This document shows positions 993 to 23,649 of a stretch of DNA of 40,727 bases, piece after piece. Position numbers and translations under genes: made by a program. The number at the start of each line of letters is the position of its first letter. Position 1 is the stretch's first letter. The stretch is taken from positions 1-40,727 of the forward strand of contig CANRAI010000002.1 of the NCBI GenBank assembly GCA_947628555.1, written 5' to 3'. The notes under the pieces were generated by a model. That model was not told the DNA's origin. It saw only the letters and a list, made by a program, of their open reading frames with translations, and ran no database searches. The DNA is from an uncultured Clostridia bacterium (GTDB taxonomy: Bacteria; Bacillota; Clostridia; Christensenellales; Borkfalkiaceae).

Positions 993-1198
993 GGTGTGTT
1001 TTAATATATAACTTCCGTTATAACGCCGCCGCCTCGTCGCCGCAAACTTTGGCTTTATGCCGTTTCTTCGCGTAAACGGCAAATTTGCCACGTTGCGGCT
1101 CCTCTTCCCAAAAATTTCGCTATGCTGCAATTTTCGGGAGCCCTATGCCTCGGCGGCGGTGTGTTTTAATATATAACTTCCGTTATAACGCCGCCGCC
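993..1198. repeat. 41-bp direct repeat (993-1033 and 1158-1198) flanking a 124-bp structured insert
   Basis: GGTGTGTTTTAATATATAACTTCCGTTATAACGCCGCCGCC occurs twice, 165 bp apart. The second copy is the 3' end of mnmA. Confidence 0.9.
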
Positions 1199-2242
1199 GA
1201 GGCAGGCGGTTTCGTCGTAAAAAACCGCATATTGCCCCTCGGTTACGGCGCGCTGTTTTTCTTCAAACTCCACAAGCGCCCCGTCGCCTTCAAGCGTAAC
1301 CGTTACTTCTTGTTCGGGCTGGCGGTAGCGGAATTTAGCGTTCACAAACTGCGTACGTATGGGGGTATAGCCTATCCAGTTCAGATTTTTTACTCTGCAC
1401 GCGCGCGAAAAAAGCGGAGTTTCGTCTCCGTGCGAAACATAAAGTACGTTATTAGTCAAATCCTTTTTCACCACGAACCAGCGCCCGTCCTCGCCGCGCC
1501 TGCCGCCCAAATCCAGCCCCTTGCGCTGCCCGAGGGTGTAGTACATCAGCCCGATATGCTCGCCCACGTTTTCGCCGTCCAAAGTCATAATCTTCCCAGG
1601 CTGCGCGGGCAGATAGTTTTGCAAAAATTTGCGGAAGTTCCGCTCCCCGATGAAGCAAATCCCCGTTGAATCCTTTTTCTGCGCGGTGGAAAGATTGAGG
1701 ACGTCCGCAATTTTCCGCACTTCGGACTTGTCAATGTCGGCAAGCGGAAACAATACGTTTTCAAGCTGTTCCTCGCGCACCTGGTTCAAAAAATATGTTT
1801 GGTCTTTCGCCGCGTCCTTAGCTTTTAAAAGCCGCGTTTTGTCGGGTAAGTGTTCGATTTTACAGTAATGCCCCGTAGCAACGAAATCCGCGCCCATATT
1901 CTTCGCGTATTCGCGGAAGGGCCCAAATTTTATCTCACGGTTGCACAAAACGTCGGGATTCGGAGTGCGCCCCGCCGCATATTCGTCGAGAAAATATTTA
2001 AATACTCTTTCTCGGTATTCCCCGGCGAAATTCACGCTATAATAGGGGATATTAAGGGCGGAGCAAACCCGCGCGACGTCTAAAAAATCTTTGTCGGAAT
2101 TGCATGCGCCAGAGGGGTCGGATTCCTCCCAGTTCATCATAAAAAGACCTATTACGTTGTAGCCCTGTTTCTTTAAAAGATATGCGGCGACGGAAGAGTC
2201 CACACCGCCGCTCATACCCATAACCACGGTTTTCGGCGACAT
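1166..2242 (-). CDS. mnmA: tRNA-specific 2-thiouridylase MnmA; start assigned at MSPKTVVMGMSGGVDSSVAA
   Basis: SGGVDSS PP-loop motif, PNPDVLCNREIKF, ATGHY, KDQTYFL and STGICFIGER motifs. The longer ORF start at 2350 would run through the tRNA gene and its promoter. Confidence 0.95.
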   Translation of the reverse strand: MSPKTVVMGMSGGVDSSVAAYLLKKQGYNVIGLFMMNWEESDPSGACNSDKDFLDVARVCSALNIPYYSVNFAGEYRERVFKYFLDEYAAGRTPNPDVLCNREIKFGPFREYAKNMGADFVATGHYCKIEHLPDKTRLLKAKDAAKDQTYFLNQVREEQLENVLFPLADIDKSEVRKIADVLNLSTAQKKDSTGICFIGERNFRKFLQNYLPAQPGKIMTLDGENVGEHIGLMYYTLGQRKGLDLGGRRGEDGRWFVVKKDLTNNVLYVSHGDETPLFSRACRVKNLNWIGYTPIRTQFVNAKFRYRQPEQEVTVTLEGDGALVEFEEKQRAVTEGQYAVFYDETACLGGGVITEVIY

Positions 2243-2292
2243 ATTTATTGCTAATTCTCCTTCAAAACGATTATAACATATTGAAATTAGGT

Positions 2293-2320
2293 TTGCAATT
2301 ATTTTGTTTTGTGTTATAAT
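2293..2320 (+). promoter_or_regulatory. Candidate promoter for the tRNA-Arg gene
   Basis: TTGCAA (2293-2298), N16, TATAAT (2315-2320). Confidence 0.6.
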
Positions 2321-2346
2321 GGATTTGGAATTTGATAGCTTTTTTC

Positions 2347-2422
2347 GCACTCGTAGTCTAATTGGATAAAACAGTGGCCTCCGACGCCGCCATTGTGGGT
2401 TCGAGCCCCGCCGGGTGCACCA
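2347..2422 (+). tRNA. tRNA-Arg, anticodon CCG, with encoded CCA
   Basis: Acceptor GCACTCG/CGGGTGC, anticodon arm GTGGC-CTCCGAC-GCCGC, T arm GTGGG-TTCGAGC-CCCGC, 3' ACCA. The D stem has one C-A mismatch. Confidence 0.88.
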
Positions 2423-2662: not shown

Positions 2663-2863
2663 GTCTATTATGCGCATTTTGGTATAGAGGGGTGGTAAAA
2701 ATCATAAGCGTTGGTTACGGTCGGCATAAAATAATATATAAATGCACATATATAAAGCATTTTGAAATAGGGGAAGTTAAAAAAAAGATAAAACGGAAGG
2801 CTTAAATTTTTTACCGGTAAAATATGAGTAAAATTTAACCAAAATATTTATAGCTTTCAATAG

Positions 2864-2994
2864 TTGACACGGCGTTATAAAAGTGATAGAATATACATAG
2901 CTATCAGTGTCGGGTTGCGCCGAAAGGCTGTATTTTACGACAAAGTTTGCGGGGAAACGCCCCCAAAAACCAAAAAAATTCAGCCGCGGCGGCT
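2864..2994 (+). promoter_or_regulatory. Leader unit copy 1: promoter plus structured RNA
   Basis: TTGACA (2864-2869)-N17-TAGAAT (2887-2892). Then helix TGTCG/CGACA (2908-2912/2938-2942), GCC-GAAA-GGC hairpin, GTTT..GGGG-AAACG-CCCC..AAAC nested helix, and AGCCG-CGG-CGGCT hairpin (2982-2994). Confidence 0.75.
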
Positions 2995-3065
2995 ATTTGT
3001 GCATACACTATAAAAGAACGTTTACATTGATTTATAAAATTTTGAAATATTGTTCGTTCAAATGG

Positions 3066-3196
3066 TTGACAGGGCATTATAATAGTGATAGAATATATAC
3101 AATTATCCGTATATAGTCACGCCGAAGGGCTGTATTTTTTGACAAGGTTTGCGGGGAAACGCCCCAAAAACCAAAAAAAATTCAGCCGCGGCGGCT
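3066..3196 (+). promoter_or_regulatory. Leader unit copy 2: promoter plus structured RNA
   Basis: TTGACA (3066-3071)-N17-TAGAAT (3089-3094). Then GTCA/TGAC (3116-3119/3140-3143), GCC-GAAG-GGC, GGTTT..GGGG-AAACG-CCCC..AAACC, and AGCCG-CGG-CGGCT (3184-3196). Confidence 0.75.
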
Positions 3197-3309
3197 ATTT
3201 GTTGCATATTACAATATATTAAAACGTTTATTTGATTTTATATAATTTTTTTTATCCAAAAAATGTATAAAAGAATAAAATCAAAAAAAATTCATTGATG
3301 AGGTGAAGT

Positions 3310-6300
3310 ATGAAGATTTGTAGGAAGCTGCTCATTGCATTGCTTTCAACGCTTTGTATAAGCGTTGGAATAGCAGGCATTGCCGCGTGCCACCCTGGCG
3401 ACGACGGCGAGCACACAGACCCGATCGGCGACGAGTATAAAGCCGTCTACAACGTCTATAAAGAGGCGGCTGGCGAAGAAGCCAAGTCCCTCGAAGACTG
3501 GTATGCCGATATCTCCGCGGATATCCAGGCAGTAGGCGAAACCGTAAGCTCGATCGACACGTTGGAATACGACAGCAAGCAATACATAAAAGTAACTTTC
3601 GAAAACGAAAAGTTATATCTCGAACCCCTTGTCGAGGGGGGCGAGCTTGTCGAGTACTCCAATTTTACGCTTAACGTAAAGGACGAGGAGGGCACACAGC
3701 TTACGACTGCCACGCGCGCATACTTAGATATATTCAGCGTCGCGGACGGTCAAAATACAACGCTTTCCACCCTTGCAACCAACGCGTATGGCAGGGTGGA
3801 GTTGTATATACCCGTGCAGACCCCGGCCGTAACCTATTACGTTCAGGTCGATGAACAATCTGCCGAAACGTACGGCATACCTTTGGGTTACGAGCCTGAG
3901 CTTGTCTCCAACGGCGGTTCTCACACCGTAGATGTAACTCTGTACACCCCGGTAACGTACACGATTTCCATTAACGACCACGCGGCAGTAGAGCGCGAGT
4001 ACACAGGCATAAAAGTAAGTCTGCGCTATACTGACGCGGGCAAGGAAGATATAACGGTAGCTTCGGGCGAGTTCGGCGCTGAGGGCGAGGATTTATCGCT
4101 CACGCTTACCCTTCATTCTGGAAGCGGCTACAAAGTTTATGTTGACAACGAAAATCTTCCCGAAAGCTTTGCGCCCGTGGACCCCGTTGAGGCCGACCTT
4201 GAAAAGATGTCCACCACTCTCGAGCTGTATGTCACTAAAAACTACGCCGAGGACGTAATGGAGACCTATTCCGATCCCGTTGAGCAGGAGACACCTTTCG
4301 TCAACGATGTTGAGCTTATAACCTTGCCGGACGCTGCGGCTGAGGTAGAGCTTAAACACGTCGAAGAGGGCGACACCTATACTTATAACAACAAACAGGT
4401 ATTCGTTGCACTCAAATACGTAAGCGCGCTCATAGGCGAAAAGTCCATTTCCCAACTCAACGAAGAGCAGGATGAAAACGACGTATATAAATTTACTTAT
4501 GAAGTGCGCACTAACGATGAGTTAAACCAGTGGACGAGGCACGTTTTTCACGACATGATTGTCGCGTACGCAGAAAAAGCAGACGAAAACGGCTTGTACC
4601 CCCTCAACACCGACTTGTATAAGTTTATTGAGGCTGCGGCAGAATACGAATGGTTTGACCTCGGCGAAAATAACGACAACGCAAGGATTCTTCTTCCCCT
4701 TGTAGTATATAGCGACGACAGGCTTGTACTCGGCTACGAAACGGGCATAAAGACGACAAAACCGGGCAACGTTTACTTTAAGCAGGGCGACCTCGGCGAG
4801 TACGAGAAAATAACCACCGGCTATTACAGGCTCGAAGTAGAGGGAGCAAAGGCGCCCAATTCATATTATTTTACGGGCTCTAGTACAACTGTCGCCTACG
4901 GTTATGTAGAAGACCTTTCGTGCAAATATAAAGGGGTTAACACCTTACGTCGCTATTTCAGATTCTATGAAGAATCAACCGACCCCGATCAGACCCCCAA
5001 AAAGTACGTTACATATATTCAGCTGTTCGAGGGTCAGGAATATATCTATCTGACCACGGGATATACCAGCACGGGATTTACCAACATAAAGCTTACCAAG
5101 CTCGACGTTAAAAACGATAACGACAAGCTGTTGTGGTATACAAATAATAGTAGTGACTCGTTCTATTCAGAGACAAATTTGTGGTCGGACGATATCAGTG
5201 CGGAAACCCTTACGCAATCGCAGCTTCTTTCCACGCCCAATAAAGCGCCCTATGAGAAGGAATATAAAGTTCTCGTATATCCCTATCAATATGTGTCACT
5301 GTCATGGAATGTCGGAGCGGGAACGTCCGCCCAAAGGGCCAATAACTTCTTACAGGCGGCATATCTGTTGGATTTTTCCAACCCGAACTTGACATATACT
5401 ATATCGGTTGAAAATAGTAAAGATGCAAGTGGTGAAGAAAAGTTAGGCAAAGTAACCCGTTGGGCTCCGACACAATATCCTACTAATGAAAACCCGTCCA
5501 GTCCTTGGGGCTATTGGAAATTCGACGCGTATTTAAGCGGCACCGTCGCAGACGGCGTATCAGGCACCAGTACTTTTAAGACTGACTATGTGGCTGTACC
5601 GCTCAGCACCGGCGCAACCAGCAGCTTGAATTCTAAGTTGCCTTTCATCGCGTTCTACCACGGCGGCACCCAAATCGAAGAAGTAACCATAAAGATTAAG
5701 GCGACACCTACAACGACCACCCTATTCTACGACCCGGGCGAGGGCGAAGGCAAGGAGTATTCTGATACGCCTAACACAGCGGCACATACCGTGCTCGACT
5801 TCGACGTACCCGAGCTTAGATATTATTACAAAGGCCATGTCTTTGCGGAATGGAAATATATCGACCCCAAAACAAGTGAGGAAAAAACCATTAAACCCGG
5901 CGAGCAGATAAAGGATACTGGCGGGTATAATAACTACTTCCTTGTAGCGCAATGGGAGGAAGAACGTGCTAATGAAATAGCGGGCAAGCTCGGCATAGGA
6001 GAAGACGGTAAGATTACAAACTTCGTCTTAGACGGCAACGCATATTCAAGTACGGCAATTGGGTTTGCCGAAGGCGTTACCGTGGGCGCATACAAACTTA
6101 CGGCAGAACTCAAAGCCCCGTTTGACGACCTGTACGCCGATTTCCTCGGAGTAGATACTCTGTTCATAAAGGATAAGTCCGTTACGGATAAAAACGTATA
6201 TGTGGCATATCTCAATATTACCGACGTTTCCGAAAAACTTGCATTCCCCACGTACGGTGCGGTGTATAAGGAGCAGAAGGTTGAAATAACTTCGCTCATC

Positions 6301-9300
6301 ATGGAAAAGTTCGATGTTACCCTTGCCGTAGATACGGCTGCGTTCGTACCCGTAAACGCCTATACGACAAAAGAAGGGGCAACGCTTTACAAGGTAAGCC
6401 TCGGCACAATCCCCCAGACCGAAGGCAGTTACAAAATAACTCTCGACTTCGGCACAGAGGGCTTCGATTACCAAGTTAAGGTATTCACCGAAAGCGTCGA
6501 AAAGGATTTCGGCAAAAACCTTACGGGCAATATCGAAATCAATTCTACCGATAAAAACCTTTGGATAATGGGCAACGCCCCGCTATATTTCTCTGACGCT
6601 ATCGTCTCGATTAAGTTGGAGCGCGGCTACCGCATACACTTTGACCTCGACCTTAAAAATAACCCCGACGTCGAGCAAGCGGGCGGAGCAAGCTTAAAAG
6701 CTCCCGCTCCCTACATCGATAAAGTTCCGGGCACGCCGTTCTCCTTCTATGCGAACGCTTCCGCAACCGGCTACACGCTGTGGCGCTGGGAATACAAGAT
6801 AAAGGGCGAAACAAAGAAAGTCTTTTACGGCGAACAGTTCGACATCCCCGCAGGCGAATACGACATTTTGATGACTGCGGTATGGAAAAAGTCCAATGAT
6901 GTAATTTATACACCTGGGACCGGCGCTTGTGTCACCTCGGACCAAGAACTTAACGAAACTAACGGAGCTAAGTTCAGAATAGATACCAAGGGCAGCGATA
7001 CAGAAGATGCCATAACGAGTATAAAATTCACGGTGGCTAATTTCATCGCTACAACAAACTATACGTTATACATGGATTTAGGCACGTCGAAATATAATGG
7101 CATATTCGAATTCACCGGCAGCCCGAGTGTTGGAAATGCTATCTATCAATTTGCGGCTATGCACAGCGATACATTGAGTACGGACGGCCATAATATATTC
7201 GTAGGTTTCTTCTTTGCGGCAGGTAATTTAACGCATACTAAGGGACTCACTATTAATTTTACGCTTGAAAACTACAATAAGGCGAGAGCGTTCGACGACG
7301 TTGAAAAGATAGAAGGCACTGCGTGGTTTGTGCAGAAAGGCAATTCCGCAATAACCCTTAAAGAGGGCGAAAAGAACGGATCCGCAGTTGCGTTAACCGT
7401 ATCCAGCTCTGCTAATAACGCTTACCTGCTCAACTTCGACAGTAAGCTTCTGAGTGGAGCGAAGTTCACTCTCCATGCAAAGTACAATGGCTCGGCTTAC
7501 TATACCATAACAACGCCTCAGCTTTCTGTATATACGTCCGCAACCAGTCATACAGAGACAGAAATGACGGCGGTTGACGGCAAGACAAACGAGTGGACTG
7601 TTGAAATCACCGTCAACGCAATGTCAACTACTTCTTTCAGTCTGTTAAGGACGTCGCTTACAAAGGCGGAGGACGCAGCAGTCACAGGCAAAGCGCAAGT
7701 AGCCGCGATAGACGTATGGCTTGAAAATAAAACGACCCCCGAAGAGGCGGCTAAACAGCTTTCGCCTGACGCGCCTCTACAGGTTGAAGTAAGCAAAACG
7801 CAGCCGGCTACGGTAACGCTTTCCAATAAGGTAGAGAAGAACACATATTACTATGTATGGGCCACATTCGAAGGCGCTGCTCCCGAGGCGGCAATAACGG
7901 TTAAAACCAGCTCCGGCAAAACCCTCGACAAAACCAATAATTTTAAGTTAAGGTATATTTCATTTACCACCAACACAATAACGGTAAGCACTGAATCCGA
8001 ACAGTCTATAAAGCTTACTCTGCATATAGCCGAGTTCAAAGACGAATATTTATGCTATGACAATCAGACAGACGATGGTAGAAACGACTTCACCTTGCCC
8101 GCGAACAAGGGCGAAGTTGACATATACCCGATGTCCGACTTCGGTACAAGTACAACTGCAGCAAAGCGCTACACAATGACGTTTACGTTCCCCGATGGTA
8201 AGGCGCACGATAGCACCGTTATTAAATTCGTTGACCGCAACGGCGTAACCTACACGTTCGATAAGAGTAACAACTGGACAGCCGGCAACATTCATGTAAT
8301 AAACACCAGTCACGGCAAATATTATATGTGGTGCGAGTCGGGCGAAGAGGTAAAAGTTCACGCAACCCTAACGTTAAGTACATCGGTATTTGTAGGCAGC
8401 ACAAGCAGCAACAGCCCCACAATAGAGCTTTCGTCGTCGGTTAAAGAGGTAAAGGGCTACTTTGCGGTAACTAGCGGCGCGCTCGTGCTTGATGGTTCGC
8501 GTGCGTTTAAATTTACGCTTACCCCCACGCAAAGCGATACCACGTCGGCCAACCTGCTGACCATAACCTATAACGGCGACAAGGTGGCTAACTTCGCTCT
8601 TTCGGCTGATCAAAAGTGCTACGAAGCCCTACTGCTTGGCGTAACAAGCGACGCATTTGTAATCAAATACACGGGCAGCAGCGAATTCAGTGCAAAAGCG
8701 AGCGCGGAATATTCGCAGGAAATCTATATTGCCAATAAAACCCCGTCGATATTAGAGAATGAGGCGACAAAGACCGAATTCTTTGCGGCAAACGCAACCA
8801 GCGGAAAGCGCTATATTAAAGTCACGCTGCACGGCGGCACCAAAGATGCGCCTACCTCATTCGATTTCTCGAAGGCTACCGTAACTTTCACGGCATGCGG
8901 CGGCGCATCTGGTAATGAGTCGTTGACTATAACAGGCTTTACAAAGCAGGGCGATAGCAATAATTACGTTGCTTACGCGCTTGCCTTCTGCGGCACCAGC
9001 GACACGAACAAATACTTCAAGATTGCGCTAGGCGGAGTTACGTTAAACACCAAGTATGTTGCGCAGTTTGATAGCTACTATTATGCTGAGATAGGGTCTT
9101 CAATTTGGGGCAGATTCCAATATTTGGGCCAGGGCGAAGACAATGATGAAGTATATTTGAAGCCCGACGGAGAGATTTTAAAGACGGGTAGCAAGTATAT
9201 GCTTATGGTGCCCGAACGCGCAGCCAATTCTTCAATTTCCGTAAAAGACACCTTTACATACACGATAACCTCGGGCGTAAAGGAAACCTCGGTTGTCTTA

Positions 9301-10125
9301 AACAAGGACAACAACTATCAGTCGGAAGTAACCCTTACGGGCGACTTGATAAGAATTGTCTTTGGGGGACACGAAAGCAAGACAAATCTTGACACATATT
9401 TCTACATGGTTGAAAAAACCAAACTTGATGAAGTGGCAGAGTTGGATAAACTCGGCAGCGATGTGTCGATAAATATAATCGGCGGCAGAATTCCCAGGAC
9501 GGTAAAGGTGACTGCCGATCTCGTAGCGGGCACGCCGTACCAGGTGCTTTTACGCCAGACGGGTTCTGGTTTAAAGGGGAGTTTGACCTATCAAGGCGTA
9601 ACTTACGATTTAACCTATAATAATGGTCCCACACTGCTGCTCAGCAAGGACGATACGTTTATAGTAACTTTCTATAAAGATAATAGTGCTCCTACTGCTA
9701 TAGGCAACGCAATAAAGATGCAGATTAAGGCGTCCACTGTGCACCCTACTGAATTGACAACGGAAGATCTTTCCGGAAAAACTCTTAGCCTTACCGCCGA
9801 TAGCACCCAATTTGCCACTAAAATCTCTTATATTATGCTTCCCGAAGATTTTGACCTCGCTAAGCAATATAAGGTGACCTTAACCACCACGGGCGTTACA
9901 TCAGGCAGGCTGTGGAGCGCAACAGTTTACTTCGGAAGTTATTTAAGTGCCAATATTCGTGTAGATGAGGTAGAAACTACTGCTAATGATAAAAACGTGA
10001 CCGTTACACAGGATGCTGTTAAATTCAGTTCACGGCTTATTCCCATAAGCTATTATCGCTTGAGTAGTAACTACGGCACAACCAATTTATCGGTTACGGT
10101 CAAGATAGAGGAAGCAAAAGCCTGA
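3310..10125 (+). CDS. Giant secreted lipoprotein / surface protein (2271 aa) with InlB-type (Listeria-Bacteroides) repeat-like segments
   Basis: Lipoprotein signal MKICRKLLIALLSTLCISVGIAGIAAC|HPGDDG; long Thr/Ser-rich beta-type repeats; segments such as FYDPGEGEG...GHVFAEWKY...YNNYFLVAQWEEE. Start preceded by GAGGTG-type RBS. Confidence 0.88.
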   Translation: MKICRKLLIALLSTLCISVGIAGIAACHPGDDGEHTDPIGDEYKAVYNVYKEAAGEEAKSLEDWYADISADIQAVGETVSSIDTLEYDSKQYIKVTFENEKLYLEPLVEGGELVEYSNFTLNVKDEEGTQLTTATRAYLDIFSVADGQNTTLSTLATNAYGRVELYIPVQTPAVTYYVQVDEQSAETYGIPLGYEPELVSNGGSHTVDVTLYTPVTYTISINDHAAVEREYTGIKVSLRYTDAGKEDITVASGEFGAEGEDLSLTLTLHSGSGYKVYVDNENLPESFAPVDPVEADLEKMSTTLELYVTKNYAEDVMETYSDPVEQETPFVNDVELITLPDAAAEVELKHVEEGDTYTYNNKQVFVALKYVSALIGEKSISQLNEEQDENDVYKFTYEVRTNDELNQWTRHVFHDMIVAYAEKADENGLYPLNTDLYKFIEAAAEYEWFDLGENNDNARILLPLVVYSDDRLVLGYETGIKTTKPGNVYFKQGDLGEYEKITTGYYRLEVEGAKAPNSYYFTGSSTTVAYGYVEDLSCKYKGVNTLRRYFRFYEESTDPDQTPKKYVTYIQLFEGQEYIYLTTGYTSTGFTNIKLTKLDVKNDNDKLLWYTNNSSDSFYSETNLWSDDISAETLTQSQLLSTPNKAPYEKEYKVLVYPYQYVSLSWNVGAGTSAQRANNFLQAAYLLDFSNPNLTYTISVENSKDASGEEKLGKVTRWAPTQYPTNENPSSPWGYWKFDAYLSGTVADGVSGTSTFKTDYVAVPLSTGATSSLNSKLPFIAFYHGGTQIEEVTIKIKATPTTTTLFYDPGEGEGKEYSDTPNTAAHTVLDFDVPELRYYYKGHVFAEWKYIDPKTSEEKTIKPGEQIKDTGGYNNYFLVAQWEEERANEIAGKLGIGEDGKITNFVLDGNAYSSTAIGFAEGVTVGAYKLTAELKAPFDDLYADFLGVDTLFIKDKSVTDKNVYVAYLNITDVSEKLAFPTYGAVYKEQKVEITSLIMEKFDVTLAVDTAAFVPVNAYTTKEGATLYKVSLGTIPQTEGSYKITLDFGTEGFDYQVKVFTESVEKDFGKNLTGNIEINSTDKNLWIMGNAPLYFSDAIVSIKLERGYRIHFDLDLKNNPDVEQAGGASLKAPAPYIDKVPGTPFSFYANASATGYTLWRWEYKIKGETKKVFYGEQFDIPAGEYDILMTAVWKKSNDVIYTPGTGACVTSDQELNETNGAKFRIDTKGSDTEDAITSIKFTVANFIATTNYTLYMDLGTSKYNGIFEFTGSPSVGNAIYQFAAMHSDTLSTDGHNIFVGFFFAAGNLTHTKGLTINFTLENYNKARAFDDVEKIEGTAWFVQKGNSAITLKEGEKNGSAVALTVSSSANNAYLLNFDSKLLSGAKFTLHAKYNGSAYYTITTPQLSVYTSATSHTETEMTAVDGKTNEWTVEITVNAMSTTSFSLLRTSLTKAEDAAVTGKAQVAAIDVWLENKTTPEEAAKQLSPDAPLQVEVSKTQPATVTLSNKVEKNTYYYVWATFEGAAPEAAITVKTSSGKTLDKTNNFKLRYISFTTNTITVSTESEQSIKLTLHIAEFKDEYLCYDNQTDDGRNDFTLPANKGEVDIYPMSDFGTSTTAAKRYTMTFTFPDGKAHDSTVIKFVDRNGVTYTFDKSNNWTAGNIHVINTSHGKYYMWCESGEEVKVHATLTLSTSVFVGSTSSNSPTIELSSSVKEVKGYFAVTSGALVLDGSRAFKFTLTPTQSDTTSANLLTITYNGDKVANFALSADQKCYEALLLGVTSDAFVIKYTGSSEFSAKASAEYSQEIYIANKTPSILENEATKTEFFAANATSGKRYIKVTLHGGTKDAPTSFDFSKATVTFTACGGASGNESLTITGFTKQGDSNNYVAYALAFCGTSDTNKYFKIALGGVTLNTKYVAQFDSYYYAEIGSSIWGRFQYLGQGEDNDEVYLKPDGEILKTGSKYMLMVPERAANSSISVKDTFTYTITSGVKETSVVLNKDNNYQSEVTLTGDLIRIVFGGHESKTNLDTYFYMVEKTKLDEVAELDKLGSDVSINIIGGRIPRTVKVTADLVAGTPYQVLLRQTGSGLKGSLTYQGVTYDLTYNNGPTLLLSKDDTFIVTFYKDNSAPTAIGNAIKMQIKASTVHPTELTTEDLSGKTLSLTADSTQFATKISYIMLPEDFDLAKQYKVTLTTTGVTSGRLWSATVYFGSYLSANIRVDEVETTANDKNVTVTQDAVKFSSRLIPISYYRLSSNYGTTNLSVTVKIEEAKA

Positions 10126-10203: not shown

Positions 10204-11346
10204 ATGAGGAAATTTTTTATAGTACTACTCATTTCAATAGCCGCTGCGTGTTGTATGGCCGCGCTTTCGGCGTGCGCAAGTGAAGAGCACGTTTGGAGCG
10301 AGGAGTGGAAGCACAACACCGTGATGCACTGGCACGAGTGCACCAACGCCGGCTGTAACGAGCGGTCAGCCCAAGCAAGCCACGATGGCTTTTGGGAGCT
10401 GACCGATAGAATCGTGCATGAAACTTGCCTTGAACGCGGCTGGGGCGTATATACTTGCACGGTCTGCGGGCAGACCAAGGAAGATATTATCCCCGACGAC
10501 GGCGGACACCACTTCGACGGCGCAACGTGGCATATAACTCCCGAAAAACACTGGCGTTATTGCACGGGCTGGGGCTGTAACGTGGTAGAAGAGTCAACGC
10601 ACGCCGACGACGATACTACGGTTCAAAAGACTATCAAAACGAGTATTAGGATGTATGACGACACAGTAATCGGGTTTTATTGCCCCGATTGCAACTATCT
10701 CTTTCATACCGAAGCAATACATTCAAAATATATGCCCGCTTCTTTCGACGTAATACTCACCGCGCAGAGCAGCAGTTATCCGTTTATCCCCGCCAAGGGA
10801 GAGCTTGAAGAGGGGGTAGATGCCGAATACAGCTTTCTCCAAAATCAAAAATGTGATTTTGTGTTTTTGAACGTCAAAAACGATAAGGGCGAAGCGCTTA
10901 GCCTCACAACAAACTACCAACACAACGAACTCAGGCATGAGGACATCACCGGACTTGTTGGGCAAAATCCCGACCAAAAGGCGGGCTTTATCGTCAGGTG
11001 TAACGGTACAGAAATAAGCAACTCGTGGGGCGTTCAATCAAGCAAGCTTAATACGGGTATTAAATGCGATAGCATCAGCGACGGACATGGCTCGTCGTAC
11101 TATGTAAAAACACTTAAGATGGTGAGTTTGGGCGACTATGTTGTAACTTTTGGCTACTACGCCATAGATACAGAACTTTCCGAAAACTTTTTATATACGG
11201 TAAAATTCCACGTTCTGGACCAATTTGACTATAACAATGCAAAAAAAGATTCGGGCTTGAAATCCGCTGCGCCGTCGGCGATTTGCTTAGCGCAGAATTT
11301 AGACGGTGTGGACTTATATCTGCCCGTTGAAAAACATGAGTGGTAA
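10204..11346 (+). CDS. Cys/His-motif lipoprotein of unknown function
   Basis: Lipobox ALSAC. Motifs HWHECTNAGC...H, YTCTVCGQ, HWRYCTGWGC...H and FYCPDCNYLFH. RBS AGAGGTG upstream. Confidence 0.8.
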   Translation: MRKFFIVLLISIAAACCMAALSACASEEHVWSEEWKHNTVMHWHECTNAGCNERSAQASHDGFWELTDRIVHETCLERGWGVYTCTVCGQTKEDIIPDDGGHHFDGATWHITPEKHWRYCTGWGCNVVEESTHADDDTTVQKTIKTSIRMYDDTVIGFYCPDCNYLFHTEAIHSKYMPASFDVILTAQSSSYPFIPAKGELEEGVDAEYSFLQNQKCDFVFLNVKNDKGEALSLTTNYQHNELRHEDITGLVGQNPDQKAGFIVRCNGTEISNSWGVQSSKLNTGIKCDSISDGHGSSYYVKTLKMVSLGDYVVTFGYYAIDTELSENFLYTVKFHVLDQFDYNNAKKDSGLKSAAPSAICLAQNLDGVDLYLPVEKHEW

Positions 11347-11349
11347 AAT

Positions 11350-12900
11350 ATGCACGAAAATTTTAAAAAACTTAAAACGAAATATGTTTTACGCGCCCTT
11401 ATTGCGGCGTTGATAATCGGCGCGGAGTGCGCGGGGATAGCTGTTGCCGTAACGCTGCTTGCGGTATTGCTTAGCGACGTATCTTTCGCCACGCTTTGGT
11501 ACGTGCTTATAGCCGTTGGGGCGGCAGTTTGCGCTACGGGAATAGCGTTTTTATGCCTATATCCCCGCGATAAAAAATTAGCCAAACGGCTCGACAATCA
11601 GTATTCACTTGAAGAGCGCACGCAAACCGCGCTTTCCTTTGTGGAAAGCAGGGGAGTGATATACGATTTACAGCGAAGCGACACCGACAGGAGACTTTCC
11701 GCATTACCCAAATCTTCGTGGGGCAAGTCGGCGGCACAGGCGGCCAAACAATTTTGGCAGGTAATCGTGCTTGCCGTGCTTGCCGTGGCTTTGATAGTTT
11801 CGTCAGTGTGCGTTATGGCTAAAAAGACGGCGGACGCCCAGGCAGCAGACCCCGAAAGAATACCTTTTTCGGTCTCCGACTTCCAGATTGTGGCTGTGCG
11901 CGAGCTTATAAACGATGTAAAAAATTCTGCCTTGCAAGAGAATATAAAGACGGCTTCGGTAGAAAAATTAGAGGATTTGGTGGAGGCGCTTCCCGAAGTT
12001 CCCAGCGTGGGTGCAATGCAACGGGCGGTGTACGGCGCGATTGACGAAGTGAACGGGATTATCTTGCCCGTCTGCACTTACCGTCCGTTTTCGGTGACCC
12101 TCGGCATGGCGGAACTGCCCTATTTTGTGCGCGTTCTGCGCCGCGGCGCCGAAGTGTATAAGGACGTGGATTTCACCGAAAATTCGGCGGTGGAAAAGTT
12201 CAGAATGGAAAGAATCGACCTCGTTATGGAGAAGGTTGATTTTTCGCTGGGACAGTTTGTAAAATTCCTCAGCGGGGTAACGGTGGAGCAGGGGCTTAAA
12301 GACAAACTTACCGAGCTTGCGGGCAACATAAGCTATGCGCTTGCAAGCTCGGAGTTAGACGAAAACGACCCCTTGCGCATCGTTGTAAAAGATTTCGGCA
12401 CGGCGGTTACGGGCCTTGTGGAGCTTGTAAACGAAGCCGAACCCAACGATGAAGAGGTTCAGTCGGAGATAAACGGGCAGTTTAATTCCTTTGCCGAAGA
12501 ATTTACCTTGCCGCTTTCCGATCAGGCGTACAGCCTTGCCGTAAACAGGCACGTCAATTTAAAACTGAGAAATATATTCGGTTTGGAAGAGCGGGAAGAA
12601 GATACCGATCCCGATTTTACAGACGGGTATGAAGTTAACCCCGAAGGCGGCGATAACGGCCCCTCGGACAGCGGCGGTGGCGAGTCGCAAGGAGGCGGCT
12701 ACGGCACGGGCGACAACGAATTTGGCAGCAAAGACCTCGTATATGACCCCGACAGCGGAACTTACGTCCAGTACGGCGACATTTTGGCGCGGTATTACGC
12801 CGTTATGCAGGAATATCTGAGAAACGGCAATTTAACCGATGAGCAAAAGGCGCAGGCAAGGTCGTATTTCGATATACTTTTCAACGGATTTAAAAATTAA
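11350..12900 (+). CDS. Multi-TM membrane protein with extended Gly/Ser/Asp-rich C-terminal region, in the MoxR operon
   Basis: Two N-terminal TM segments (RALIAALIIGAECAGIAVAVTLLAVLL; WYVLIAVGAAVCATGIAFLCLY) and one near aa 135-155; starts 3 bp after the previous stop. Confidence 0.8.
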   Translation: MHENFKKLKTKYVLRALIAALIIGAECAGIAVAVTLLAVLLSDVSFATLWYVLIAVGAAVCATGIAFLCLYPRDKKLAKRLDNQYSLEERTQTALSFVESRGVIYDLQRSDTDRRLSALPKSSWGKSAAQAAKQFWQVIVLAVLAVALIVSSVCVMAKKTADAQAADPERIPFSVSDFQIVAVRELINDVKNSALQENIKTASVEKLEDLVEALPEVPSVGAMQRAVYGAIDEVNGIILPVCTYRPFSVTLGMAELPYFVRVLRRGAEVYKDVDFTENSAVEKFRMERIDLVMEKVDFSLGQFVKFLSGVTVEQGLKDKLTELAGNISYALASSELDENDPLRIVVKDFGTAVTGLVELVNEAEPNDEEVQSEINGQFNSFAEEFTLPLSDQAYSLAVNRHVNLKLRNIFGLEEREEDTDPDFTDGYEVNPEGGDNGPSDSGGGESQGGGYGTGDNEFGSKDLVYDPDSGTYVQYGDILARYYAVMQEYLRNGNLTDEQKAQARSYFDILFNGFKN

Positions 12901-12926
12901 TAATGCTAATAAAGTGTGAGGATGAA

Positions 12927-14051
12927 ATGAAAAAATTCAAGAAAAACAATCAAGCGACAGAAGAAGCGGAGGAAGTAAAGGTAGAGCAGGCGGAGGAAAA
13001 AGAAGAGACCGCCGAAGTTTCAGTTACAACCGAAGCTGCGGTAACAGGCGTGGAGACGGAGGACGTGCCGGATGAAAACGCGCCCGAGAAGGTCAAGCAG
13101 TTCAGCGTATCCATAAGTAAGATAAAAGCTGAGCTTGCGAAAGACGTAGTAGGCATGGAGGACGTAATAGACAGCGTAATCTGCGCGATAATTGCGGGCG
13201 GCAACGTGCTGTTGGAGGGCGTGCCGGGCGTAGGCAAGACAAGACTTGTCCGTTCGTTGGGCAAGACGTTGAGTTTGCCGTTCTCGAGGATACAGTTCAC
13301 GCCCGACTTAATGCCTTCGGACGTAACGGGCACGAACATAATCGAGCAGGACGAGAAGGGAAAGATGAGTATGGTATTCCGCCGCGGACCCATATTCGCC
13401 AACCTTGTGCTTGCGGACGAAATCAACCGTGCAACGCCCAAAACCCAGTCGGCGATGCTGGAAGTAATGCAGGAGCATAAGGTAACGGCGGCAAAGACAA
13501 CATATACGCTGGAAGAGCCGTTCTTCGTATTGGCAACGCAGAACCCGATAGAGCAAGACGGAACATATCCCTTGCCCGAAGCGCAGATAGACAGGTTTAT
13601 GTTTAAGCTGCTGGTTGGCTTCCCCAAAAAGGGAGAGATTGCAGACATAGTAAATATGACGCAGATAACCATGGACGAGACAGCGGAGGCGGTAATAGAC
13701 GGTAAGACGATAATGGAGATGCGCGAGCTGTCCAAGACCGTGCCTGTGCTTAACGAAGTTTTGGATTTTACTGTAAAACTCGTATCAAACACCCACCCCG
13801 AGATTGAGGATTCGCCTGCCACGGCAAAGAAGTACGTGCGCTACGGCGCTTCTCCGCGAGCGGCTCAGGCGCTGATAACGTGCGCAAAGGTCAGGGCGTT
13901 AATGCACGGCAGGTTCAACGTATCGTATAACGATATAAAGGCGTTGGCGTATCCCGTACTTAGGCACAGGGTAAAGCTCAACTATAACGCTGTGAACGAT
14001 AAGTTGAGCGTAGATGATGTAATAAAGCAACTTATAAGCGAGACTAAATAA
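12927..14051 (+). CDS. MoxR family AAA+ ATPase
   Basis: Walker A GVPGVGKT, Walker B LVLADEINRATPKTQSAMLEVMQE, ATQNPIEQDGTYPLPEAQIDRFMF. Start assigned at MKKFKKNN after GTGAGGATG. Confidence 0.95.
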   Translation: MKKFKKNNQATEEAEEVKVEQAEEKEETAEVSVTTEAAVTGVETEDVPDENAPEKVKQFSVSISKIKAELAKDVVGMEDVIDSVICAIIAGGNVLLEGVPGVGKTRLVRSLGKTLSLPFSRIQFTPDLMPSDVTGTNIIEQDEKGKMSMVFRRGPIFANLVLADEINRATPKTQSAMLEVMQEHKVTAAKTTYTLEEPFFVLATQNPIEQDGTYPLPEAQIDRFMFKLLVGFPKKGEIADIVNMTQITMDETAEAVIDGKTIMEMRELSKTVPVLNEVLDFTVKLVSNTHPEIEDSPATAKKYVRYGASPRAAQALITCAKVRALMHGRFNVSYNDIKALAYPVLRHRVKLNYNAVNDKLSVDDVIKQLISETK

Positions 14052-14056
14052 GATAA

Positions 14057-14941
14057 ATGAGTGAAATAATAGTGGACGAAGCGTTTTTGCAACAGTTGGA
14101 ACTGTTGCAAACGCTGCTGAAAAATAACGTTGCGGGCAGATACGGCGGCAACCACCAAAGCAAGACGTACGGTTCCTCGTGCGAGTTTGCGGACTACCGC
14201 GACTATATACCCGGCGACGATATAACCAAAATCGATTGGAACGCCTTTGCCCGCTTTGAAAAGCTATATTTAAAGCTGTATTTAGACGAGCGGCAGGTGC
14301 ACACGCGGATATATATAGACGCCAGCCGCTCCATGGCTTACGGCAAGGGCAAAAAGGACGCGCAGGCAATACGAATAGCCGCCGCCTTAGCCTATCTGTC
14401 CGTGTGCGAAATGGATAGGGTGTCCATATACGCTCTCCATGGCGACAAAGTGGAGGAGGTAATTCCGCCCATGCTCGGCAAGGATAGTTATCTCGACAAC
14501 ATCGGCAAGCTCAACGACATAGAGTTTGACGGCGACTGCCGTATCTCCGACGCAATAGCTTATTCCGAAGTAGGCTACGGGGACGGCATGAGCATTATAA
14601 TTTCCGATTTCCTTACGGATAACGATTATTTTGCCGCGCTGGACAGATTTTCCGGCAAAAAGCGGGATTTGGTCTGCGTGCAGGTGCTCGCCGAAGAGGA
14701 ATTGCGCCCCAAGGCGCGCGGTAAGATGCATTTTTACGACAGCGAAGATTCCGAAAGATTTTACCGCAAAAACATAAATAAGGAGATAATCCGCGCCTAT
14801 TCGCTCGCGCTTGAATACGCCACGGGTAGGCTGCGCGATGGCTGTTTTTCGCGCGGGGGCAGTTATGTGCTCGTCTCCTCCGCGGATAAGCTATCCGACA
14901 TCATATTTGATAAATTTGTGGCAGTGGGGGTGATTAAGTGA
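14057..14941 (+). CDS. DUF58 domain-containing protein
   Basis: YGSSCEFADYRDYIPGDDITKIDWNAFARFEKLYLKLYLDERQ and IYIDASRSM are typical of DUF58 proteins adjacent to MoxR. Confidence 0.92.
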   Translation: MSEIIVDEAFLQQLELLQTLLKNNVAGRYGGNHQSKTYGSSCEFADYRDYIPGDDITKIDWNAFARFEKLYLKLYLDERQVHTRIYIDASRSMAYGKGKKDAQAIRIAAALAYLSVCEMDRVSIYALHGDKVEEVIPPMLGKDSYLDNIGKLNDIEFDGDCRISDAIAYSEVGYGDGMSIIISDFLTDNDYFAALDRFSGKKRDLVCVQVLAEEELRPKARGKMHFYDSEDSERFYRKNINKEIIRAYSLALEYATGRLRDGCFSRGGSYVLVSSADKLSDIIFDKFVAVGVIK

Positions 14942-16827
14942 ACCTCATATACGTGCTCGGATTGCTGGCTTTGCTGGCAATTCCGATCATAATCTTTATA
15001 TATATCATAAAAAACAAATATACCGAGCAGACTATTTCGTCAACATATCTCTGGACGTTGAGCGAAAAGTTTATAAGAAAGCGCATTCCCATAAACAGGT
15101 TAGTGGGAATACTCAGCCTTATATTGCAGATAATCGCTGTGGTTTTGCTTGCATTGCTGCTTGCGCACCCCATGCTCGTAATTCCCCATTCGGCAAGTGC
15201 ATATTGTTTTGTTTTAGACGGCTCGGGCAGTATGAACTTTGAATTGAATGGTAAAACCCGCTTTGAAGTGGGCAAGGAGATGATAAGCGATATCATTTCG
15301 GAAGCCACCGATGGCAGTACCTATACGCTGATTTTCTGCGGCAGTACCACCGATACAATCTACAAGGACATAGCCGATAAGGACAGTGCGTTGAAGAGCC
15401 TTGCTTCCCTGAAAACGGCGGACACGACCCCCGATTTTCTGGATATAATCACTGCCACGCAGGAGTATTTTGACGGCAACCACGCCGCAAACACCTATCT
15501 TGTGACCGACGTGGACTACGGTTTGACAAAAAACGTCAAGCTTCTTAACGTTGCCAAAGGCTACGAAAACGTCCAAAACTATTCGCTTTTCGACGTGGAT
15601 TATACCATGCTGGGAACGCAGGCCGTAGTCAGTGGCAAAGCCGTATCCTACGGCAGCGCGGCGCAGATAAAGGTAGAGATATTCTTCTGCGGTGATAACG
15701 GGATATATTTTAAGGGCGGCGAACAGATGTTAGCGCTCGAAGAGGGCGGCATGGGCGAGTTTTCGGTAACTTGCGACGTGGGCAATTTCAGTGCGGTGAA
15801 AGTAGTCATAGCCGACGAGGACAACCTTGCCCCCGACAACGAGGTTATTTTGTACAACGCCACTTACGAGAGAATAGGCAATACTCTGCTTGTCTCCGAC
15901 AATTCCTTTTTCGCGCTCGCCTCGCTGACTGCGGCGGGTAACGATAAGGTGGACGTGGTTACCACAAAACAGTACGAGGAATTGGCACTTTCGGGCTATG
16001 GGCTGTATATTTTTGATTCCTACACTCCCGGAACGTTGCCTTACGATGGCGCGGTATGGTTTATAAACCCCCGCGGCTCTACTGCGGGCGCGGGATTTAC
16101 ATACCAGACCGATATGACTTCTACCTTTTCAAACAAGCTTTCTGCGAATTTTTCAAGGAGTTCGGATACTTCGTCGCTGTTATATAGGATTGTGGACGGT
16201 GTAAGCACGACTTCATTTGAGCTGGGAAGTTACGTCAGGTGCGGAATAACGGGTGAATTTACCACCGTGGCAACGTGCGGAAGCGACCCGATTGCCTTTG
16301 TGGGCAGTAACGAATACGGCAACCGCGAGGCGGTTTTGGCGTTTTCGCTTAATTCCTCCGGCGCATTTACCCTTTCGGCGAACTGCGTGACGCTGTTTTC
16401 AAATATTCTTAAATATATGTTCCCCCCAGTAGTGGAAAAAACAAGCTATACGTGTGGGGATATATTGCCGATAAACATAATTTCGGGCTGCGCCACCATG
16501 CGCATATATACGCCGGGCGGCGAAGAAGTTTATTTGAACACCGCTTCGGTGGTGAGCGAATACAAGCTTACCCAGGCAGGGACTTACCGCATAGTAATGC
16601 TTATGAGCAACGGCACCGAGGAGAGAGTGTACAACGTTTACGCAAATCTTCCCCAAAGCGAGCGCATACCCAACCCCGCGGACATAGAGTTCGTCGTGGA
16701 AGGGCTGGCTTCCGATTCCAAGTTCGATGGGTATTACGACAATCTATTTATAATATTTATTATTCTTGCCGTATTTTTTGCGGCAGATTACGGAGTGTAT
16801 TGTTATGAACAGTATCAGCTTCGATAA
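14938..16827 (+). CDS. BatA-like membrane protein with vWA domain
   Basis: N-terminal TM, FIRKRIPINR, MIDAS motif VLDGSGSM, C-terminal TM. ATG/stop overlap with the previous gene. Confidence 0.85.
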   Translation: MNLIYVLGLLALLAIPIIIFIYIIKNKYTEQTISSTYLWTLSEKFIRKRIPINRLVGILSLILQIIAVVLLALLLAHPMLVIPHSASAYCFVLDGSGSMNFELNGKTRFEVGKEMISDIISEATDGSTYTLIFCGSTTDTIYKDIADKDSALKSLASLKTADTTPDFLDIITATQEYFDGNHAANTYLVTDVDYGLTKNVKLLNVAKGYENVQNYSLFDVDYTMLGTQAVVSGKAVSYGSAAQIKVEIFFCGDNGIYFKGGEQMLALEEGGMGEFSVTCDVGNFSAVKVVIADEDNLAPDNEVILYNATYERIGNTLLVSDNSFFALASLTAAGNDKVDVVTTKQYEELALSGYGLYIFDSYTPGTLPYDGAVWFINPRGSTAGAGFTYQTDMTSTFSNKLSANFSRSSDTSSLLYRIVDGVSTTSFELGSYVRCGITGEFTTVATCGSDPIAFVGSNEYGNREAVLAFSLNSSGAFTLSANCVTLFSNILKYMFPPVVEKTSYTCGDILPINIISGCATMRIYTPGGEEVYLNTASVVSEYKLTQAGTYRIVMLMSNGTEERVYNVYANLPQSERIPNPADIEFVVEGLASDSKFDGYYDNLFIIFIILAVFFAADYGVYCYEQYQLR

Positions 16828-19561
16828 CCCTTGGTATCTGTTGATAGCCGTTCCCCTCGTTGTTCTGTTTACCGTCCCGTTTATCGTGGCGATAAGAAAG
16901 ACCAACGTAAACGGGCACAACGTTGCTTCGCAGGTGCTTCACATTTTAATAGCGATTATAATAGCCTTTGCAGCGGCGGGCACATCCTTTGACACCATGC
17001 TCACCGAAACAAACGTATACGTTGTAGCCGACGTATCCTATTCGGCGAACAAAAATCTCGACGCCATAGATGGCTACATAAAGAATCTCGATTTGCCCGC
17101 ACATAGCAAGCTCGGCGTAGTTTGCTTCGGCAAGGACTGCGAAATTCTGTGCAATATGGGCGATCCCGATAAGTTCCATACGGTAAAAGATTCCACCGTG
17201 GACGACAGCGAGACCAATATTTGCGAAGCGTTGGAGTTTACTGGCGGGCTGTTTAAGGACGATGTTATTAAGCGCATAGTGCTTATAACCGATGGCAAAG
17301 CCACGGACACGAGCGACGACTACGCGATGGCCCGCGCTGTAGAGGGGCTGGAAGCCCAAGGCGTGAAGGTGGACGCGATTTATCTCAACGATAATATCTC
17401 CGCCGACGCAAAAGAGGTGCAGATATCTTCCGTCCAATATGCCAAAAGCGTCTTCTCCAACCGCAACGAAAAGGCGGCAGTATCGGTGCGCTCAACGTAC
17501 GATACGCGCGCGATAATGACCTTGAAGTGCAATGAAGATATCGAGTCGCAGAGGGCGGTAGAACTCAAAAAGGGCATAAACTATATCGATTTCGACCTCG
17601 ACACTTCCCAAGAGGGCGAAAAGGACTACGAGGTGACCGTCTCGGCGGACGACGACATCTGCGACTATAACAACGTATATAAGTTTACGCAGCAGGTAAC
17701 TTCGGTAATGAAGGTTATGGTGGTCACGGGCGACTACGATGAGGGGCTGAGCGTAGTGGATTACTACGGCGACGACGTGGCAATAGATATATACGATTTC
17801 AGTTCGTCTCCCAATAAGCAGCCGATAGATTCGGAAAAATATCCCAACGTCAATCTGTATTCCAACCGTAGTCTTCCTACCTCGCTTGGCGATTTGAATC
17901 TATACGACGAATTTGTGATCTCCGAGGTAACGCTCGGCAGGATAACGGGCGCTTCGATGTTTGTTTCCAGTTTAAACGCCGCAGTATCTAAATTCGGCAA
18001 GACCTTGCTCACTTTCGGCAATATACGTAGCGAAGCAACTTCGCTCGGCAATATGCTGCCCGTAAATTTCGGCGACGATAATTCCACGCCCAAGCTTTAT
18101 ACTCTCATAATAGACTCTTCGAGAAGTATGGAGGATTTAAAACACCTTCAATTGGCAAAACAGCTTGCTGTGCGGCTTTTGGACCTGTTGAATGAGAATG
18201 ACGAGATATGCCTTATAACCTTCAACGGCACGGCGCGTATGATTCAGCCGCCCACACCGTTTAGTAGGGGCACGAGAAACTCTATAATAGCAAATATAAA
18301 CGGCCTTGAATACACCCAAGGCACTATAATAGGCGCGGGCTTAAAGATGTGTTACGACTTTGTAAACGATTTGGAATACAGCGCCAAACAGGTAATGCTT
18401 ATTACCGACGGTCTGGACTATCTTGCAAGCTCGGCTCCCGAACCCCGTGGACTTGCGCGGACCATGTACAACGCGGGCATAGTAACCTCGGTTTTCGACG
18501 TCGGTAGGCAGGGCGATACGAGCACGGGAGCCAACAACAACCCCACTAATGCCTTTGCAAAAAGCCTTTTGATAGGAATAGCTTCGGCGGGCGGCGGAAA
18601 GTACTTCTATTCCAAAAGCGCCTCGGAGCTCAATGAGGTAACCTTCGGCGATATAAAGGAGCTCACCAATGATCCGGTTAACGAAAAGCAAGCCGAGGTT
18701 TCCGTTTTAAGGCGTGTGGACAATACGCTTGCGGGGCTTGACTCGGTAACTTTCCCGTCGGTAAACGGATATGTATATACAAGAATCAAACCGGCGGCAA
18801 CCACCGTGCTGGCTATAAACCACGTAACGGAAGAGGATACCGACCCGACCCGCATTCCTCTGTACGCATATTGGAAATATGGAAACGGAATAGTTGCATC
18901 GTTTACAAGCCGCATCGGAAATGCATGGCTTGACAACTGGAGGGCGGCAGACATAGATTCCGTGTTTATGTCCAACGTCGTCAAGGATATTTCCCCCAAA
19001 GAAAAGATAGATAAGCCGTATATCATAGATGTGAAAAAAGACGGCGCGCAGTTTGAAATTTCGGCTACGCCGGGCACAGCAGTCACTTCAGCCGAAGTCA
19101 GCGCGCACATATTTACCCCCGACGGCGACAGCTTTTTCAAAGTTATGAACTATACGCGCGAGAAGGGGAAGTATATTTGCAGGTTCGATGGCGTTGGCGC
19201 AGGTTCGTACAAGATTGAGATAAACTATAATTTAGGGCAACGGCGATACAGCTCCGAAGAGGTGTATCACTATTCCTATTCGGACGAGTACGACAGCTTT
19301 GCGATATTCAACCCCGCGCCGCTTTACAAGGCGCTGAACGGCAAGGGCGAAGTTAGCCTTGATGGCAAGCTATCGCTTAAAAACGACGATGAAAACGTGG
19401 ATCTGCACAAGGTGGATATGACTATCCCTCTGTTAGCTGTTGCGGCGGCGTTGTATGTTGTGGATATTGCCGTGAGAAAGTTGAAGTGGGACGATATCAA
19501 GAGTTTCTTCGGACTTTTCAGAAAATCCGATAAAAAGTCTGCGGGAGGAAAAGCGGTATGA
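16805..19561 (+). CDS. Large membrane vWA protein (two vWA-like domains)
   Basis: FDNPWYLLIAVPLVVLF N-terminal TM; MIDAS-like VADVSYSAN and LIIDSSRSME; start chosen at MNSISFDNPW, 23 bp inside the previous gene. Confidence 0.85.
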   Translation: MNSISFDNPWYLLIAVPLVVLFTVPFIVAIRKTNVNGHNVASQVLHILIAIIIAFAAAGTSFDTMLTETNVYVVADVSYSANKNLDAIDGYIKNLDLPAHSKLGVVCFGKDCEILCNMGDPDKFHTVKDSTVDDSETNICEALEFTGGLFKDDVIKRIVLITDGKATDTSDDYAMARAVEGLEAQGVKVDAIYLNDNISADAKEVQISSVQYAKSVFSNRNEKAAVSVRSTYDTRAIMTLKCNEDIESQRAVELKKGINYIDFDLDTSQEGEKDYEVTVSADDDICDYNNVYKFTQQVTSVMKVMVVTGDYDEGLSVVDYYGDDVAIDIYDFSSSPNKQPIDSEKYPNVNLYSNRSLPTSLGDLNLYDEFVISEVTLGRITGASMFVSSLNAAVSKFGKTLLTFGNIRSEATSLGNMLPVNFGDDNSTPKLYTLIIDSSRSMEDLKHLQLAKQLAVRLLDLLNENDEICLITFNGTARMIQPPTPFSRGTRNSIIANINGLEYTQGTIIGAGLKMCYDFVNDLEYSAKQVMLITDGLDYLASSAPEPRGLARTMYNAGIVTSVFDVGRQGDTSTGANNNPTNAFAKSLLIGIASAGGGKYFYSKSASELNEVTFGDIKELTNDPVNEKQAEVSVLRRVDNTLAGLDSVTFPSVNGYVYTRIKPAATTVLAINHVTEEDTDPTRIPLYAYWKYGNGIVASFTSRIGNAWLDNWRAADIDSVFMSNVVKDISPKEKIDKPYIIDVKKDGAQFEISATPGTAVTSAEVSAHIFTPDGDSFFKVMNYTREKGKYICRFDGVGAGSYKIEINYNLGQRRYSSEEVYHYSYSDEYDSFAIFNPAPLYKALNGKGEVSLDGKLSLKNDDENVDLHKVDMTIPLLAVAAALYVVDIAVRKLKWDDIKSFFGLFRKSDKKSAGGKAV

Positions 19562-22564: not shown

Positions 22565-23649
22565 TCTATGCTAAATCCGAATAATTCTTCGAAGCCCTTT
22601 GTATTTATTTGTACAATGCTTTTTTCAAAGGTGACGTAAAACAATAATCTTCCCCGTCCAAGCTCTTTCATTTTGCTTTTATGCTCGGGCAGAGAAACTT
22701 TTTGCAGAATATTTTTCCCTTTGTCGGGTTTGATTTTTATCGTCGTTTTATTTTGGTTTTTAACGTCGCTTTCTATGAAATAATCCCTGCCTTCCGCTTC
22801 TTCATCGCACAGCAAGGTTAAAATTTCTTCATATGAAATTCCGTACGCCTTGTCGAAAAACATCTGCAAATAATAGTGGGGCACGTTATACCTTTTTACC
22901 CAATTATAGACTACCTTTAAATCCTCGACTTTGGGAGTAATGCTTAAAAATTTCCTTGTCTGGATTTTCGTCAAATATAGTTTCAATTCTTTGAGTAGCG
23001 AAGATAATTGGGACAATTCCTGCGAACTTTTCCAGGAAGGAGTACGATAGGAAACTACGGAGATGTTGTCCTTATCCAATGCGGAAATTATTTTATGCAG
23101 CTCGGGATTTTTTTTCAGAAGCAATTCGGAAAAATTATTTATAATGCTTGCTTTTAAATCAAAAATTTTTTTAAATAAAAAGGATTCTTCGCCTTGCATA
23201 TAAGCATTATATTTATCGTATAAAAAGGAACTTGACCTTATTTCGATGCCGCACTTTGCTTTCGGCACCAGCAAATCCAATTCTTCTTGCGATAAACGGC
23301 AAATATTATATGTATCGTAAGGGAAATCTTTTTTATTGAAAATCAATACGTCGGGACGCTTGCCTATCGCGTCGAGCTCGTTCTGATAGTTTCGGTAAAA
23401 TTCGGCAAAGCCTGTTTCGCCGGCTATTATATCGTCGTCCCGCCCGTATTTTACGGCAATATAATTTTTCGAAAAATCGTTAATGCCCTTAATAAAAGTT
23501 TTTTCCGCCCAATCGCCTTGTTCTTTGTTGGTTAAAAATTCGGAAGAAACCTGCGTAGGCACGCCGTATTTTTCCCTTTCGACATTCAAATCCAATAATT
23601 CTCTGTTGACGTTTTTAATGACGCTTTCGATTTTTTCTATGTATTCCAT
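22561..23649 (-). CDS. Putative type II restriction endonuclease (possibly AccI-like)
   Basis: Sits directly upstream of the methyltransferase with a 4-bp ATGA overlap. KRPDVLIFNKK...CGIEIRSSSF resembles a PD-(D/E)xK-type core. The AccI resemblance is from memory and untested. Confidence 0.7.
   Translation of the reverse strand: MEYIEKIESVIKNVNRELLDLNVEREKYGVPTQVSSEFLTNKEQGDWAEKTFIKGINDFSKNYIAVKYGRDDDIIAGETGFAEFYRNYQNELDAIGKRPDVLIFNKKDFPYDTYNICRLSQEELDLLVPKAKCGIEIRSSSFLYDKYNAYMQGEESFLFKKIFDLKASIINNFSELLLKKNPELHKIISALDKDNISVVSYRTPSWKSSQELSQLSSLLKELKLYLTKIQTRKFLSITPKVEDLKVVYNWVKRYNVPHYYLQMFFDKAYGISYEEILTLLCDEEAEGRDYFIESDVKNQNKTTIKIKPDKGKNILQKVSLPEHKSKMKELGRGRLLFYVTFEKSIVQINTKGFEELFGFSIE

Follow-up and report, generated by a model that had tools for sequence, protein, structure and literature searches.

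The gene of a giant lipoprotein in an uncultured Clostridia bacterium is preceded by two similar DNA units, each combining a promoter-like sequence with a segment capable of hairpin formation; this arrangement raises the question whether the units encode a functional structured RNA, as proposed in a first-pass annotation from an apparent compensatory base change between the copies, or merely descend from a local duplication with another role. The window analyzed comprises 40,727 nucleotides of one contig (C2) of a 124-contig genome of 1.14 Mb; 93 further genomes of the same genus served for comparison. As far as the evidence goes, the locus is an ordinary one: the duplication is real, the proposed covariation is wrong, the favored fold is a different one, and no relatives were detected in the collections searched. 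The reading preferred here, with an estimated probability of roughly 0.55, is a local, species-specific duplication of a sigma-A-type promoter and a hairpin leader that would set the expression of the lipoprotein-MoxR-DUF58-VWA operon.

Tandem duplication, promoter matches and putative downstream operon

Pairwise alignment of the two 202-bp units revealed a head-to-tail tandem duplication of approximately 202 bp (region 2830-3235; see Table 1), in agreement with the spacing annotated before. Its core (2859-3000 versus 3061-3202) comprises 142 bp that are aligned without gaps and are 85% identical; the outer parts of both units are alignable too, but diverged and rich in indels. The 22 differences among the 142 core positions indicate that the duplication is old and not an assembly echo. 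No further copies of the unit were present elsewhere in the same genome; a dispersed repeat or mobile element was rejected, as the genome contains only two copies.

Each unit possesses its own consensus promoter match. The annotated motif TTGACA-N17-TAGAAT was confirmed in both copies and is in both extended by a TGA before the −10 element; P1 and P2 are identical 11/12 matches and belong to just five sites of 11-12/12 in the 40.7-kb window. Judged by this agreement with the consensus, both look like strong sigma-A-type promoters.

The operon is located directly downstream of the duplication in the same direction, and the general arrangement described in the annotation (tandem promoter and predicted hairpin-forming leader upstream of a giant lipoprotein gene) is correct. 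N-terminal homologues of the lipoprotein (29-36% identity) occur in five genomes of the genus; in 5/5 of these, a homologue of the 380-aa gene is encoded on the same contig and strand as the lipoprotein, and the gene order is kept. The genes of the MoxR ATPase, DUF58, BatA/VWA and VWA proteins form one run (12903-19561) after the giant lipoprotein gene and two genes whose products match no Pfam family; together they make up a Bat-like operon headed, unusually, by a surface lipoprotein. Elsewhere in the window, a Type II restriction-modification pair is encoded on the minus strand (21077-23649; AccI-family endonuclease, 22561-23649; Eco57I-type N6-adenine methylase, 21077-22564).

Table 1. Coordinates of the duplicated units, their predicted elements and the downstream genes within the window.
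Feature	Position	Strand	Basis and remarks
Duplication copy 1	2830-3031	+	pairwise alignment of units
Duplication copy 2	3032-3235	+	pairwise alignment of units
Promoter P1 (TTGACA-N17-TAGAAT, TGA before −10)	2864-2892	+	consensus match; predicted start ~2899
Promoter P2 (TTGACA-N17-TAGAAT, TGA before −10)	3066-3094	+	consensus match; predicted start ~3101
Start-site spacer of copy 1 (most diverged part)	2895-2917	+	52% identical to 3097-3119
Rod-like hairpin, leader copy 1	2913-2994	+	MFE ~−28 kcal/mol; GC-matched rank top 2.3% window-wide
Rod-like hairpin, leader copy 2	3115-3196	+	MFE ~−34 kcal/mol, z −3.2; GC-matched rank top 0.2%
AU-rich inverted repeat between copy 2 and ribosome-binding site	3227-3289	+	inverted-repeat search, fold
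Giant lipoprotein ORF, 2271 aa (MKICRKLL...GIAAC lipobox), first gene downstream	3310-10125	+	ORF; N-terminal homologues in five same-genus genomes
Further putative operon genes (380-aa and 516-aa unknowns, MoxR AAA, DUF58, BatA/VWA, VWA, 463-aa unknown)	10204-20949	+	ORFs, domain matches

Predicted fold and the proposed compensatory change

Energy minimization predicted the same single rod for both copies, composed of the helices CGCCG/CGGCG, GGCUG/CAGCC, UAUUUU/AAAAUU and GUUU/AAAC and the cap GGGG-AAACG-CCCC; it starts about 14-20 nt past the predicted transcription start. The helix set annotated before is not the favored fold: for the same segments, it reached −17.1/−20.3 kcal/mol (copy 1/copy 2) versus −29.1/−35.8 kcal/mol for the optimal rod, which is 12-15 kcal/mol more stable (as coded, the copy-1 structure lacks the GTTT/AAAC helix, and the gap is slightly overstated there). 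The GGGG-AAACG-CCCC and AGCCG-CGG-CGGCT hairpin sequences are, as noted in the annotation, retained in both copies; the rod pairs the AGCCG and CGGCT segments otherwise, and the last of the annotated hairpins and the rod are mutually exclusive. Compared with shuffled sequences, the rod of copy 2 is unusually stable (z −3.2), and that of copy 1 is no more stable than the shuffles (z −0.6); the GC-matched ranks given in Table 1 were computed over 80-nt windows across the whole window.

The compensatory base change (GTCG/CGAC versus GTCA/TGAC) could not be upheld. The pairings in question join TGTCG (2908-2912) with CGACA (2938-2942) in copy 1 and GTCA (3116-3119) with TGAC (3140-3143) in copy 2. 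Of these, the right arms occupy homologous positions (CGAC at 2938 and TGAC at 3140, unit offset 79 in both copies); the left arms, by contrast, are non-homologous, being positioned at unit offsets 50 versus 55 of an ungapped alignment. In consequence, there is no base pair common by descent, and nothing was compensated. Helices of this kind also arise readily by chance: when the 23-nt spacer was shuffled, pairing of 4 bp or more with the right-arm block appeared in 55-58% of the shuffles of either copy, and for both copies in 32%. The second annotated helix (GTTT in copy 1 versus GGTTT in copy 2) differs by a one-sided change that is not compensatory. According to the comparison of 25 rod pairs between the copies, 24 were invariant, one showed a one-sided change and none a two-sided change. 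The related statement that the flanking sequence has diverged while pairing was kept holds only in part: the rod is 95% identical, and nearly all of its pairs are just unchanged. Caution is generally required in this respect, as “covariation” assigned by eye across two copies can arise from non-homologous arms.

Uneven divergence between the copies

Identity between the copies amounts to 95% in the rod, 89% in the promoter and 52% in the 23-nt start-site spacer. Fisher tests yielded P = 6e-6 for rod versus spacer and P = 0.002 for promoter versus spacer; these values are optimistic, as the sub-regions were picked after viewing the alignment, and the clustering of differences in 25-nt windows (P about 0.005) is the safer measure. 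Compared with the outer flanks, the rod stands out less (5' flank, P = 0.03; 3' flank, P = 0.12; indels uncounted). This uneven divergence is the strongest hint of selection acting to maintain promoter and rod; alternatively, gene conversion may have occurred, or the spacer may hold a local patch of mutations.

A duplication of the promoter only, relevant for promoter dosage or not at all, with an incidental hairpin whose similarity reflects common descent, is a possible if rather unlikely explanation. It is in line with the lack of homologues and of covariation, and with the presence of more stable GC-rich intergenic hairpins just upstream (2377-2670). Likewise, the conservation of the fold falls mostly within chance: among simulated random mutants with matched differences, the P values for fold preservation were 0.11, 0.63 and 0.22 in one direction and 0.002, 0.14 and 0.26 in the other, and between-copy preservation as modeled appears mostly no better than chance, so that any structural constraint is putative. 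However, an identity of 52% in the spacer versus 95% in the rod at the same age would be unexpected for incidental sequence, barring gene conversion or a mutation patch.

Termination signals

The GC arms of the rod resemble the terminator stems of this genus, but only AUUUGUUG / AUUUGUGC come after. A good plus-strand U-tract was not found behind either rod, the tails (ATTTGTTG, ATTTGTGC) being poor; read-through into the operon is therefore expected. In a loose terminator scan, the 3' hairpin of unit 2 passed and the hairpin of unit 1 failed.

These data bear on the view that the units are a tandem sibling sRNA pair, i.e. independent genes with own promoters, a diverged 5' seed and a conserved structured body doubling as terminator. 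The promoter match in each unit, the diverged 5' end of ~23 nt leading into a conserved structured body (similar to OmrA/OmrB and PrrF1/PrrF2; PMC4211561) and the passing unit-2 hairpin are consistent with such a pair; the lack of a proper plus-strand U-tract, the failing unit-1 hairpin, the position directly ahead of a gene on the same strand and the absence of any copy elsewhere in the genus or family genomes searched render it improbable. Doubtful to a like degree is the broader proposal of an unrecognized leader or tandem sRNA pair that evolves rapidly, keeps a conserved rod scaffold behind diverged 5' seeds and controls the surface lipoprotein-VWA operon.

Search for RNA families and relatives

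Among the Rfam 15 covariance models, only tRNA (2347-2419) matched in the window at or above the gathering score, and a search of 2780-3320 in E-value mode gave sub-threshold chance matches only; the annotated failure to assign the units to a known riboswitch class thus holds, and no other known RNA family matches them. The covariance model R1, applied with stricter Infernal filters to 94 same-genus and 301 family-level genomes, detected no homologue (the sole matches, in G021:C150 and G000:C35, were read as chance). With filters off, R1 revealed nothing convincing in the five orthologous loci; the best match (L034, 272-336) is apparently a terminator-like hairpin followed by a U run. BLAST against 201 relatives yielded, outside the window's own genome, only matches of 18-45 nt, and those inspected appeared to be coding sequence, terminators or low-complexity DNA. 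No homologue was found by BLAST of phages and plasmids; an exact 20-mer pattern was absent from viral contigs and had one match among GTDB genomes, in a Microbacteriaceae MAG of a distant lineage. Recurrence of the unit upstream of surface-protein genes, which the annotation had named as potential support, was not observed in the genus, the family, the orthologous operons or the same genome. As far as can be seen from these comparisons, the unit appears specific to one species.

Each of the five orthologous operons has one evident promoter (a TTGAC/TTGCA-type promoter-like site near the gene), and their leaders are unrelated. Since all five detected operons are devoid of the rod, it is not essential to the operon. 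Two of them (genomes G035 and G053; L035 3121-3264, minus strand, and L036 1333-1471, plus strand) share another structured leader, GGCGGCUUA..UAAGCCGUC followed by GGUUUU..GGAA..UUCC..AAAGC, that has no Rfam match. It was rejected as a distant relative of the unit: the two-sequence model R2 recovers those two genomes and not the window; no other convincing copy was found with R2 in the genus, with weak matches only in G058 and G087.

A new class of ligand-sensing riboswitch or other cis-regulatory RNA is highly improbable. The stable fold of copy 2 and the lack of an Rfam match would be compatible with it; a sequence detected in a single genome does not, however, point to a new class by lacking a known family. 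The lack of homologues that could reveal covariation, the simple rod in place of a junction, the lack of a conserved unpaired core, the presence of two promoters instead of one leader with two aptamers and the loss of the compensatory pair argue against a riboswitch, for which there is no positive evidence. A tandem type I toxin-antitoxin-like pair (minus-strand peptide frames with the plus-strand RNA as antisense antitoxin) is extremely improbable: a minus-strand 34-codon frame (copy 2, 3103-3207; a like frame in copy 1, 2904-3006; related peptides) stays open in both copies and stops at nearly the same point, but neither start is preceded by a Shine-Dalgarno sequence. In copy 1, an ATG is missing from the homologous position, so that only a GTG or an ATG far upstream could serve as start; roughly one residue in three differs, with silent changes not clearly in excess, and the frames are probably due to chance. 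Coding on the plus strand was rejected as well: in copy 2, a TAG stands ahead of the open frame common to both units, which is left there without a usable start.

As to the matched tRNA, the 3' end of tRNA-Arg(CCG) (2402-2424) is repeated 199 bp downstream (2601-2623; 87% over 23 nt) amid very stable hairpins (2530-2670); this repeat would be either the remnant of a duplicated tRNA or the scar of an old integration. An mnmA-like ORF (1166-2422, minus strand; GTG start at 2350) overlaps with the tRNA-Arg (2347-2422) by a few bases; because of this overlap, the start of the longest ORF is probably placed too far upstream.

Proposed function and comparison with known systems

According to the preferred reading of a promoter-leader duplication, a head-to-tail event at the front of the operon would have doubled a strong promoter along with the initial ~100 nt of the RNA made from it. 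Each promoter would start a transcript, the leader of which would fold into one long rod after ~15-20 unpaired nt. The doubled promoter most likely sets the transcription level of the operon, and the rod most likely works in cis, as a structural element at the 5' end of the long mRNA: as stability hairpin and/or as leaky, terminator-like attenuator. Given the poor tails, leaky attenuation or 5' mRNA protection would be likelier than full termination. We infer the transcription starts, the co-transcription of the operon and any effect of the rod from these features. Provided that the rod is indeed under constraint, the locus would illustrate on a small scale how the duplication of a promoter with its leader tunes a surface-protein operon of an uncultured lineage, and how quickly such leaders are replaced among the species of a genus.

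Tandem riboswitches, e.g. the glycine riboswitch, carry a pair of aptamers in a leader transcribed from a single promoter. The present locus resembles them in that one 5' region holds two similar structured units, and differs by an own promoter match in each unit, the lack of an Rfam match and of covariation, and the simple rod. Tandem sibling sRNAs have been reviewed for PrrF1/PrrF2, OmrA/OmrB and AbcR1/AbcR2; siblings such as OmrA/OmrB and PrrF1/PrrF2 have shared and private segments, and read-through across both tandem units can occur, as in PrrH (PMC4211561). The units described here are likewise duplicated head to tail, partly diverged and each equipped with a promoter match; unlike the sibling sRNAs, they are without convincing intrinsic terminator and without conservation in related species, and are located directly upstream of an operon on the same strand. 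In Firmicutes, stem-loops in the 5' UTR stabilize or tune long mRNAs. The hairpin of the present locus deviates from these in being duplicated together with its promoter, and any effect on half-life is putative; it would resemble them in forming, close to the predicted start of a long operon transcript, a hairpin whose stability stands out against shuffled sequences in copy 2 only.
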